A DNA stretch of 57,274 nucleotides, taken from positions 1 through 57,274 of the forward strand of contig CANQIX010000003.1 in the NCBI GenBank assembly GCA_947624105.1, in the 5' to 3' direction. Made by a program: the position numbers and the translations under genes. Positions 46,191 through 49,621 of this stretch are shown here, in pieces. Each line of letters begins with the position of its first letter. Position 1 is the stretch's first letter. Below the pieces are notes generated by a model. It was given only the letters and a program-made list of their open reading frames with translations. It was not told the DNA's origin and searched no databases. The stretch is from an uncultured Clostridia bacterium (GTDB taxonomy: Bacteria; Bacillota; Clostridia; Christensenellales; UBA1242).

Positions 46191-46535
46191 ATGAATCATT
46201 TACTTGCATTAGGGACAAAAACAGTTAAGGCTTTTGCTGAAAACGAAGTTGCTATTCCAACTTGGGTTTCGGCATCTTTTCCTATCATTAGGATTGTTTT
46301 GTTTTGTATAATTGCTGTTGCTGCTATCATTATGATAGTTGCAGTGCTTTTCCAATCGGAAGATGCGGGAAACACAACAGCAATTACTGGCGGACAAGAT
46401 ACTTACTATTCTCAAAACCGCAACACATCGAAAGATGGAAGACTTAAAATAATCACTATTGTAATGGGAATCACAATTTTTGTTTGTGCCATCTTGTATT
46501 TCATCACTATTTTACCATTTGGCGGATTGGAATAA
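46191..46535 (+). CDS. secG: Protein translocase subunit SecG
   Basis: A 114-residue auxiliary subunit of the SecYEG channel. Two membrane helices enclose the diagnostic loop: IMIVAVLFQSEDAGNTTAITGG, then KIITIVMGITIFVCAILY. About 30 extra residues precede the first helix compared with short SecG proteins. SD: AAAGGAGAGATCATG. The stop shares one base with the rnr start. The order secG-rnr-smpB-ssrA is the classic Firmicutes arrangement. Confidence 0.92.
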   Translation: MNHLLALGTKTVKAFAENEVAIPTWVSASFPIIRIVLFCIIAVAAIIMIVAVLFQSEDAGNTTAITGGQDTYYSQNRNTSKDGRLKIITIVMGITIFVCAILYFITILPFGGLE

Positions 46536-48616
46536 TGAACAAAAGAGAGCGAATATTAGAGTTAGTCGCTAAAAATAGTTTGGTCTATAATAATGTAGAC
46601 AAACTTTTTTTATTTCTGTCAACTGCTCTTGACACCTCTGTCGAGGAAGTTAAGCAGATCTTTTATCAACTCGTTGGAAACGGCGATATATATGAACTTA
46701 GAAAGAACAAGTTTATCGTCATTCCATCGTGCGGACACGTTAAGGGAGAGTATTGCGGCTCTGCAAAGGGCTTCGGCTTTGTTAAGGTAAGAGGATACGA
46801 AGACGACATCTTCATTCCTGCAAACAAAACTATGAACGCGATTGACGGAGAAAAAGTTATCGTCAATGTGCTTTCTCACACCAGCGAGGGCTCTTCTGGT
46901 GAGGTTGTTTCTATCTATCAACCACTTCAAAACATTGTTGGGCTTGTTAAGATAGTTGCAAATAACTTCTTCCTTGACCCAGACAATAAACATATAAACG
47001 AGGATTTTCCAATTGTAAAAACCGGCTTGAAACTGAAAAAAGATATGAAGGTTCTTGCAAAGGTTATAAGAACGGAAAAGGGCAAAGTTAAATGCGTTGT
47101 TGACGAAATTTTGGGAATGAATGACGACATAAAGACATTGGAACTTTCTATCATTCGTGAATATAACGTGTTTGAAAACTTCCCAGATGTCGTTTTGCAG
47201 GCGGAAAAAAGTGTTCCAAAGACAGTTAGTGCAAAGCAGAAAAAGGGCAGACTTGATCTAACAAATGAAGTTATATTTACTATTGACGGAGCAGATGCAA
47301 AGGACTTAGATGATGCTATTTCCATCAAAAAACAAGGCGAATTTTATGAGGTTGGCGTTCATATTGCCGATGTTGGAGAGTATGTAAAGCGCGATTCTGT
47401 CATCGACGAAGAGGCTTACAGAAGAGGCACAAGTGTATATTTTCCTACCTCTGTTATTCCAATGCTTCCAGTTGCGCTTTCTAACGGGATATGTTCGCTT
47501 AACGAGGGCGTTGAACGTCTTACACTTTCGTGCATTATGAAACTCGACAAAGATGCAAATGTTGTCGACTATAAGATTTGCGAAAGCGTAATCAAAAGCA
47601 AAGCAAGGCTTACTTATAAAGAAGTTTATGCCGCATTAAACGGCGAATTAAATGAAAAAACTAAAGATTTGGTATCACATTTCAAACTTATGAGAGAAGT
47701 TTGTGATGTTCTAGAGCAGAAACAAGCGGAAAGAGGGGCGCTCGACCTTGAAATTCCAGAAGTTCAATTTGTGTTTGACGAAAACGGAATGGCTGTTGAC
47801 CTTACACGAAGAGAACGCAATGAAGCGCACAGACTTATCGAGGATTTTATGGTGCTTGCAAACAGAGTTGTTGCAAAACACTTTAACGACCTTAAGATTC
47901 CTTTTGTTTATCGTGTTCACGAAGCGCCAACCAAAGAAAAAGTATACGCTTTGTGCGACTTCTTGAAGGGGCTTGGCGTAAGATATCCACAAGTTCCAGA
48001 TAAGATTGAACCATCTTATTTTCAAAAGATTCTTGCAGATGTCGAAGATTTAAACAGCAAAGACATCATAAACAAAGTTATCTTAAGAACGATGCAAAAG
48101 GCAAAGTATGCCAACGAAGATTTGGGGCACTTTGGACTTGCGCTTGTTGACTACTGCCACTTCACTTCACCTATTAGGCGTTATCCAGACTTAACGATTC
48201 ACAGAATCATAAAGATGTATTTGCACAATCAAATTGACGATGCAGCAAAGGAAGATTTGGATATATTCACTTTCGATTCTTCGGAGCAATCGAGCGAAAG
48301 AGAAAGAAATGCCGATGTTGCAGAGCGTGAAGTTGACGACTTGTGGAAGGCATACCTTATGAAAGATAGGATTGGTGAAACTTTTGACGCAACCGTTTCT
48401 TCGGTAACAAACTTTGGTATTTTTGTTGCCCTTGAGAACACCTGTGAGGGCTTAGTTCGCATCGAATCGCTTCCACTTGACACCTACATATTCTTTGAAA
48501 AACAACTTCAACTTAAAGGTGCAAGCCACATATACGCGATAGGCGATAAGGTTAAAGTTGAACTTATGAATGTAAATCTTTACAGCAGAGAGATAGATTT
48601 TAAGGTTGTTGAATAA
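46535..48616 (+). CDS. rnr: Ribonuclease R
   Basis: A 693-residue 3'-to-5' exoribonuclease. The start is set at 46535, overlapping the secG stop; the tracked ORF opens 17 codons earlier. Order of domains: an N-terminal helix-turn-helix (RERILELVAKNSLVYNNVDKL), cold-shock domains (GSAKGFGFVKVRGYEDDIFIP), the RNB catalytic domain with IDGADAKDLDDAISI and YFPTSVIPMLP, HFTSPIRRYPDLTIHRI, and a C-terminal S1 domain (SSVTNFGIFVALENTCEGLV). RNase R degrades structured RNA and, with SmpB-tmRNA, non-stop messages. A terminator follows; smpB has its own promoter. Confidence 0.96.
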   Translation: MNKRERILELVAKNSLVYNNVDKLFLFLSTALDTSVEEVKQIFYQLVGNGDIYELRKNKFIVIPSCGHVKGEYCGSAKGFGFVKVRGYEDDIFIPANKTMNAIDGEKVIVNVLSHTSEGSSGEVVSIYQPLQNIVGLVKIVANNFFLDPDNKHINEDFPIVKTGLKLKKDMKVLAKVIRTEKGKVKCVVDEILGMNDDIKTLELSIIREYNVFENFPDVVLQAEKSVPKTVSAKQKKGRLDLTNEVIFTIDGADAKDLDDAISIKKQGEFYEVGVHIADVGEYVKRDSVIDEEAYRRGTSVYFPTSVIPMLPVALSNGICSLNEGVERLTLSCIMKLDKDANVVDYKICESVIKSKARLTYKEVYAALNGELNEKTKDLVSHFKLMREVCDVLEQKQAERGALDLEIPEVQFVFDENGMAVDLTRRERNEAHRLIEDFMVLANRVVAKHFNDLKIPFVYRVHEAPTKEKVYALCDFLKGLGVRYPQVPDKIEPSYFQKILADVEDLNSKDIINKVILRTMQKAKYANEDLGHFGLALVDYCHFTSPIRRYPDLTIHRIIKMYLHNQIDDAAKEDLDIFTFDSSEQSSERERNADVAEREVDDLWKAYLMKDRIGETFDATVSSVTNFGIFVALENTCEGLVRIESLPLDTYIFFEKQLQLKGASHIYAIGDKVKVELMNVNLYSREIDFKVVE

Positions 48617-48619
48617 TGT

Positions 48620-48649
48620 AAACTGGCAGAGCAATCTGTCAGTTTTTTA
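48620..48649 (+). terminator. Rho-independent terminator after rnr
   Basis: AACTGGCAGA-GCAA-TCTGTCAGTTTTTT hairpin with one wobble. Confidence 0.88.
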
Positions 48650-48700: not shown

Positions 48701-48729
48701 TTGATTTTTGCCAGGGTCTGTGATATACT
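48701..48729 (+). promoter_or_regulatory. Sigma-A-like promoter of smpB
   Basis: TTGATT at 48701-48706, 17-bp spacer, TATACT at 48724-48729. Confidence 0.75.
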
Positions 48730-48749: not shown

Positions 48750-49205
48750 GTGGAAATCAAGGCAAACAACAAAAAAGCGTATTTTAATTATTTCATTTCC
48801 GATTGTGTAGAGGCTGGTATCGAACTTAAAGGCAGCGAAGTGAAGTCGGTAAGAGCGGGCGGCGTAAGCATTTTGGATAGTTTTGTCGACATAAAAAACG
48901 GCGAGATGTATCTTAAAAATGCCTATATAAAACCTTACGAAAAGACAACAGCGTTTAAGGTTGAAGAGCGCCGAAACAGAAAACTTTTACTTCACAAAGA
49001 GCAAATTTTGAAGTTTGAACGTGCCACAAAGGAAAAGGGGCTTACCATTGTTCCAACAAAAGTCTATATAAACAAGGCAGGAAAAGTTAAGGTTGAAGTT
49101 GGACTTGCAAGAGGTAAAAAGTTGTATGATAAGCGCCAAACCCTTAAGGATAGACAAGTGAAACGAGATATCGAGCGCTATCCAATCCGTCATGGGGGTG
49201 ATTAA
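48750..49205 (+). CDS. smpB: SsrA-binding protein SmpB
   Basis: A 151-residue OB-fold protein that binds tmRNA and places it in the ribosomal A site. Motifs: NNKKAYFNYFISDCVEAGIELKGSEVKS, NAYIKPYEK, RRNRKLLLHKEQI, VYINKAGKVKVEVGLARGKKLYDKR and the basic C-terminal tail. The start is GTG with an SD (ATGAGGAGATGGAAGAGTG). The final codons GGG GGT GAT TAA are also the first bases of mature tmRNA. Cleavage at the tmRNA 5' end would leave smpB mRNA ending after His-148 without a stop codon. Confidence 0.96.
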   Translation: MEIKANNKKAYFNYFISDCVEAGIELKGSEVKSVRAGGVSILDSFVDIKNGEMYLKNAYIKPYEKTTAFKVEERRNRKLLLHKEQILKFERATKEKGLTIVPTKVYINKAGKVKVEVGLARGKKLYDKRQTLKDRQVKRDIERYPIRHGGD

Positions 49206-49588
49206 GTTTCGACACAGTTAATTTCGCAAAACACAAAGCATGTGGCGTCTTTCGCCTAAAACAAGAAAACAAATAAACGCAGAAGAAAATTCTAATGCAA
49301 CAACTCTTGCTTATGCTTATGCTTATGCTGCCTAAGTTAGGAGTTACTTGCGCCTGATTAGAGCATATCTAATCCATCGTCATTTTGGTATGCCTACAAA
49401 ATGTTAGGTGTCAGACTAGGCAAAAATTTTATGCAAAGTTGTCCTTGTATGCGTAAAAAATTTTAAGGAATTGTTTTAGAAGTTTGTTTGCGGACCACTC
49501 TAAAATGAAACAAAAACACAAACTAAACATGTAGAAAAGTTTTGTTAAGTAACTATGGACTCGGGAGCGTAACCCGACACCTCCACCA
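49194..49588 (+). ncRNA. ssrA: Transfer-messenger RNA (tmRNA)
   Basis: One-piece tmRNA of about 395 nt. The 5' end GGGGGTGATTAAGTTTCGACA and the 3' end CACCTCC-ACCA form a 7-bp acceptor stem. It includes a G-U pair at position 3, the alanine identity element. The T-arm lies in CGGGAGCGTAACCCG-type sequence near the 3' end. The tag ORF starts at GCA (49279) after AAATAAAC and runs to TAA at 49333-49335, encoding AEENSNATTLAYAYAYAA. The RNA releases ribosomes stuck on non-stop mRNA and tags the product for proteolysis. It overlaps the smpB stop by 12 nt. Confidence 0.97.
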
Positions 49589-49589
49589 A

Positions 49590-49621
49590 AAAAGAACCAC
49601 AAAATTGTGGCTCTTTTTTTT
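49590..49621 (+). terminator. Terminator of ssrA
   Basis: AAAGAACCACAAAATTGTGGCTCTTTTTTTT: CCACAA/TTGTGG hairpin with a T-run straight after the CCA. Confidence 0.92.

Follow-up and report, generated by a model that had tools for sequence, protein, structure and literature searches.

Overlap of smpB with the tmRNA gene in Clostridia and in another class of the phylum, and its possible effect on SmpB synthesis

In the 57,274-nucleotide stretch of DNA from an uncultured Clostridia bacterium analysed here (the window), the smpB gene runs into ssrA, the gene for tmRNA, and ends inside the mature RNA. Wherever the two genes share a transcript, maturation of tmRNA necessarily strips the stop codon from smpB, as an earlier note on this DNA had pointed out. 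Overlaps of 10 nt or more are present in at least 29 species from at least four lineages, with complete SmpB proteins, and amount to a natural experiment, repeated several times, in balancing the protein and RNA partners of the main ribosome-rescue system. This recurrence, together with the stability of the overlap within clades, is the new result. The best explanation of the overlap, to which we assign a probability of roughly one half, is a transcript with two possible fates, in which SmpB output would be capped for each tmRNA made. If the overlap is regulatory, it would form a self-referential non-stop circuit; if it is neutral, it shows bacteria tolerating the loss of the stop from an important rescue-gene message at each tmRNA maturation.

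The smpB–ssrA junction in the window

The smpB product scores 188.1 bits against TIGR00086 (E 7.8e-56; curated cut-off 119.1 bits) and also matches NF003843 (E 4.7e-57). Its residues 2-144 match known SmpB structures, and the YDKR motif is followed by 19 residues before the first nucleotide of tmRNA (G1). The nearest named matches (tblastn) are uncultured Clostridia, including Candidatus Caccovivens faecavium, with 68.7% identity to the window SmpB. The ssrA gene gives a complete match to the Rfam covariance model RF00023 (121.3 bits, E 6.6e-47, model positions 1-374), with a CCA end, a 7-bp acceptor stem and a tag frame ending in AA-stop, and is the only tmRNA above threshold in the whole 0.96-Mb genome. 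Coordinates are given in Table 1.

Table 1. Features of the secG–ssrA region of the window
Feature	Position	Strand	Basis or detail
secG, before rnr	46191-46535	+	TIGR00810, 2.7e-9
rnr (RNase R), upstream of smpB	46535-48616	+	NCBIfam TIGR02063, 1.6e-210
Terminator-like hairpin between rnr and smpB	48620-48645	+	11 bp, T-rich tail; consensus match only
Probable smpB-ssrA promoter	48701-48729	+	Scan; TTGATT-17-TATACT, TG before -10
smpB	48750-49205	+	ORF; GTG start, 151 aa, TAA stop 49203-49205
Predicted RNase P cut site	49191-49194	+	49193/49194; Rfam 5' end and acceptor pairing
smpB/ssrA overlap	49194-49205	+	Last 3 smpB codons and stop = tmRNA nt 1-12
ssrA (tmRNA), mature form with encoded CCA	49194-49588	+	Rfam RF00023
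Tag reading frame, AEENSNATTLAYAYAYAA-stop	49279-49335	+	Translation; resume codon by alignment to Rfam consensus
Acceptor stem, 3' strand CACCTCC	49578-49584	+	Pairs with 49194-49200 (GGGGGUG)
Terminator-like hairpin 3' of ssrA	49597-49610	+	Followed by T run; consensus match only

The location of the smpB stop inside mature tmRNA, noticed earlier from the sequence, was confirmed by the open reading frame, by the acceptor pairing and by the Rfam model, which places tmRNA nucleotide 1 at 49194. The overlap, GGGGGTGATTAA, is 12 nt long, exact and read directly, with smpB ending in GGG GGT GAT TAA. With smpB upstream of ssrA on the same strand and its stop within the mature RNA, the arrangement is of the type described in Carsonella (see below). 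Base 49193 closes the His148 codon CAT and 49194 is G1, and we infer that RNase P cleavage between them would remove the smpB stop.

The acceptor pairing is intact in all 97 congeners in which tmRNA adjoins smpB, with variants at pair 5 (G-C, A-U or G-U), pair 6 (C-G or U-A) and pair 7 (G-C or A-U). At position 6 the window has U-A where its relatives have C-G, a compensated change whose 5' side is synonymous in SmpB (GGC to GGT). Given this change, and the same 12-nt overlap in two congeners (L252 and L253), chance or an assembly artefact was rejected as the source of the overlap. In the window a codon ends precisely at the RNase P cut, as the earlier note had remarked, but this is not conserved: in other lineages the cut splits a codon, leaving one or two of its bases upstream. 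Since the reading phase at the cut varies between lineages, the alignment seen in the window is incidental, and it was discarded as a meaningful feature.

Distribution and origin of the overlap

The comparison of smpB-ssrA spacing in relatives proposed in the earlier note was carried out, and the overlap recurs within the genus and beyond. We searched 112 species of the genus and read 101 smpB loci, four genus loci being outside automatic parsing; nearly all genomes compared are metagenome assemblies. The tmRNA gene adjoins smpB in 97 of the 101 loci, with a stop-to-G1 distance of -12 in three species (the window, L252 and L253), -11 in 14, -1 in one, 0 to 19 in 73 and more than 50 in six. The idea of the window as a lone case was rejected by this whole-genus survey, and the overlap is absent in about 80% of congeners. 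For the overlapping loci examined, the Rfam 5' ends agree with our reading of the junction. Three relatives give no smpB match, one in the same genus (G217, 99% complete) and two in the same family (G077 and G108, 97-98% complete), where either loss or an assembly gap is possible.

In a tree of the congeners built without the overlap columns, the 14 species with an 11-nt overlap form a single clade (support 100/99), with no exception or reversal and an unchanged tail length. The three species with a 12-nt overlap form one clade in the best tree, weakly supported (76/76), and a grouping of the window with the non-overlapping L015/L244 was not rejected (p-AU 0.318). Taken together, the sequences indicate at least two origins of the overlap within the genus.

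To look further afield, we matched a junction pattern against 391 genomes from the class and 398 from the phylum; it covers junctions 40-70 nt after [YH][DE]KR and misses FDKR proteins such as that of G016, so the resulting counts are lower bounds. Three matches were false (L325-L327) and two others came without a locus. In genus g107 (family f64), another genus of Clostridia, a 10-nt overlap (..G GGG GCG TAA) is present in all four species, and all eight species of family f127, which belongs to a different class of the phylum and is represented by four genera, have a 13-nt overlap (..G GGG GCG ATT TAG). One f127 genome (G713) is complete on a single contig, so a cultured member may exist. Thirteen nucleotides was the longest overlap in the genus and in the class and phylum junction surveys. 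At five loci (L224, L247, L310, L314 and L338) the overlap is a single base, the TAG stop using G1 of tmRNA as its last G, and an RNase P cut would leave ..TA, likewise a non-stop message. Where the gap is 0-7 nt, the cut message would keep its stop, but very close to its 3' terminus, where slight exonuclease trimming would be expected to render it non-stop.

Sister species suggest how such overlaps come about. In these, a leader of a few bases separates the smpB stop from G1 and often ends in CAT (L024, L027), so that the triplet that is untranslated leader in several non-overlapping sisters is the His148 codon in the window; likewise, the TAA at tmRNA nucleotides 10-12 is already present in the non-overlapping L033, L034 and L131. 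A short indel that shifts or deletes the old stop is enough to create the overlap. These facts fit a nearly neutral process of compaction, in which indels that lose the stop are tolerated, the new frame meets TAA or TAG at tmRNA nucleotides 8-13, and most SmpB is made before the cut, the fragment then being degraded. We consider this quite possible, if short of an even chance. On such a history the stop inside tmRNA predates the overlap, and the last codon upstream of the cut was once leader; moreover, every overlap of 10 nt or more ends at the first stop available in frame, most loci of the genus have gaps of 0-19 nt, and tight smpB-ssrA gaps are common in other Clostridia. Against it, no reversal is seen in clades of 14, 8 and 4 species, nor over the four genera of one such lineage, where one nonsense mutation a codon or two earlier could undo the overlap, and the register was preserved between the window and L252 despite an in-frame codon indel. 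The stability within clades could also reflect a constraint on the length of the SmpB tail, since tails are near-constant without the overlap too (3 changes in 42 species).

The SmpB tail is required for activity (reviewed in PMC8012679). The distance from the DKR motif to G1 is 18.3-19 codons in overlapping congeners, and the SmpB of non-overlapping ones usually stops 19 residues past the motif (the mode). As the tails of non-overlapping relatives end where the overlap begins, the residues encoded by tmRNA are extra, and a SmpB ending at G1 would, judging by these lengths, keep a tail of normal size. It is extremely improbable that the overlap is kept for the sake of these C-terminal residues (GGD or GGR): they are retained in all overlapping species, but they are set by the tmRNA sequence, vary by lineage (GGD, GGR, TGA/LGA/MGA, LGAI/TGAI/MGAI) and are absent from the relatives.

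Transcription and fate of the shared transcript

In the window secG, rnr, smpB and ssrA all lie on one strand. Directly 5' of smpB a promoter resembling TTGAAA-17-TATAAT scores 13/14 in 77 of 96 congeners, with a mean of 12.5/14 over the 96 species. In contrast, the highest-scoring sites within 160 nt upstream of G1 in the congeners average 8.77, against 8.95 for synonymous-codon shuffles, and a promoter for ssrA inside smpB was therefore rejected. The conserved promoter before smpB and the lack of a detectable one before ssrA support co-transcription, and the simplest reading is that the two genes probably form one unit, ssrA relying on the smpB promoter. If ssrA were instead transcribed mainly from its own promoter within smpB, most smpB mRNA would remain uncut and there would be no loop. 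The ssrA of B. subtilis is thought also to have its own promoter, and weak promoter-like sites do occur within smpB, as they do anywhere; yet those sites are no better than the shuffles, and the promoter before smpB is near-consensus and fixed in position, which makes this alternative very unlikely.

In most congeners (e.g. L005, L037 and L239) only about 10 nt separate the end of the strong promoter from the smpB start. Such spacing implies a 5' leader of about 3 nt, though an SD-like AGGAG is present there, and tmRNA is possibly made from a poorly translated smpB transcript. In four species of the 11-nt clade (L023, L025, L155 and L257) ATA stands in place of the usual smpB ATG, and an ATG in frame with the gene is found within the -10 box (TATAATG), behind AAGGTG, such that start codon and promoter seem to overlap.

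RNase P makes tmRNA 5' ends (PMC3985003), and RNase P RNA is present in the genome. In the two-fate reading that we favour, an uncut smpB-ssrA transcript would yield full-length SmpB, terminating at the TAA in its tmRNA part. When the tmRNA portion is complete and folded, RNase P would cut at the predicted site and free it, leaving an smpB mRNA that ends on the His148 sense codon with an empty A site. This would be the preferred kind of substrate, as tagging declines once the mRNA extends more than 9 nt beyond the P site (PMC8012679). If the genes are co-transcribed, a non-stop smpB mRNA is likely to be made. Ribosomes reaching the cut end would then be freed only by SmpB-tmRNA, the nascent SmpB would be tagged for proteolysis, and the stalled mRNA would go to decay via RNase R, encoded next door. 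Each tmRNA made would end productive SmpB synthesis from its transcript, and so cap SmpB per tmRNA. The co-transcription, the RNase P cut, the tagging of SmpB and the effect on its level are all steps that we infer.

A search for other rescue factors covered ArfB and RqcH. In the genome, which is 98% complete, no ArfB was found (its two RF-1-domain proteins are both of full-length release-factor size), nor any NFACT/RqcH match. As neither factor was detected, trans-translation is the only rescue route found, and stalled SmpB would be tagged.

Timing bears on how much could be regulated. RNA polymerase reaches the 3' half of the acceptor stem, at the tmRNA 3' end, some 380 nt beyond the smpB stop; because of this lag the earliest rounds of translation are probably completed normally, and little may be left to regulate. 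The cut-off 5' fragment may also be degraded before further translation. The amount of SmpB made after the cut decides between regulation and by-product. A stronger proposal, that the overlap is a selected homeostatic device which originated independently at least four times in the phylum, fixes SmpB per tmRNA and derepresses SmpB when rescue is saturated, seems to us rather doubtful.

Related systems and features of the tmRNA

The overlap may exert feedback control on SmpB. This idea, put forward in the earlier note, retains its structural basis in the window but is not new: Hudson, Lau and Williams 2014 (PMC4131195) described the smpB-ssrA overlap of Carsonella, which they credit to Mao et al. 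2009, and proposed the same feedback for it. That survey of about 2,000 genomes reported the overlap in Carsonella only, regarding it as a curiosity of genome decay (PMC4131195), and we found no other report in the literature searched, including the 2025 tmRNA database paper. In Carsonella ruddii, as in the window, the 3' end of smpB overlaps ssrA, with both genes on one strand, and tmRNA maturation is expected to give a non-stop smpB mRNA. However, Carsonella is an insect symbiont of extremely reduced kind, and its SmpB has neither the central loop nor the C-terminal tail, whereas the SmpB proteins of the lineages described here are complete. Furthermore, only half of the Carsonella strains have the overlap, with varying extents, while those reported here measure 10-13 nt and are constant within clades in at least four lineages.

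Two rescue factors offer a partial parallel. For E. coli arfA an RNA-processing enzyme likewise makes the mRNA non-stop and trans-translation limits the product, but the enzyme is RNase III and not RNase P, and ArfA is a backup rescue factor, expressed upon tmRNA failure, which gives the loop the opposite logic. B. subtilis brfA similarly has a stop-less mRNA and is kept low by trans-translation (PMC8012679), but its stop is removed by an intragenic terminator and not by processing of a structural RNA. In the window the product is not an alternative rescue factor but SmpB itself. In overlaps of protein genes with tRNA genes (PMC4131195, Table 4), such as tRNA-Ile with FtsW/RodA genes in Helicobacter, maturation also removes the upstream stop; there, in contrast, the product stands outside the rescue system and there is no self-reference.

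The tag had earlier been given as AEENSNATTL. A tag frame does exist, but that version was cut short, the full frame being the one listed in Table 1. The window tag ends in AYAYAYAA, encoded by a GCTTAT repeat, and the tags of relatives end in ..AMPCAA or ..AAA. ARAGORN did not detect the window tmRNA, probably on account of its T-loop, AGCGUAA. In 15 sister species including the window (49551-49588), the T-loop is AGCGUAA or AGCAUAA and not the usual UUCRANN; the carriers besides the window are L015, L024, L027, L123, L131, L244, L252, L253, L256, L258, L261-L263 and L265. With this loop, the 54/58 pair would turn from U-A to A-U. Family f127 (L353-L360) also departs from UUCRANN, with a UGCAAUU-like T-loop in the species parsed.
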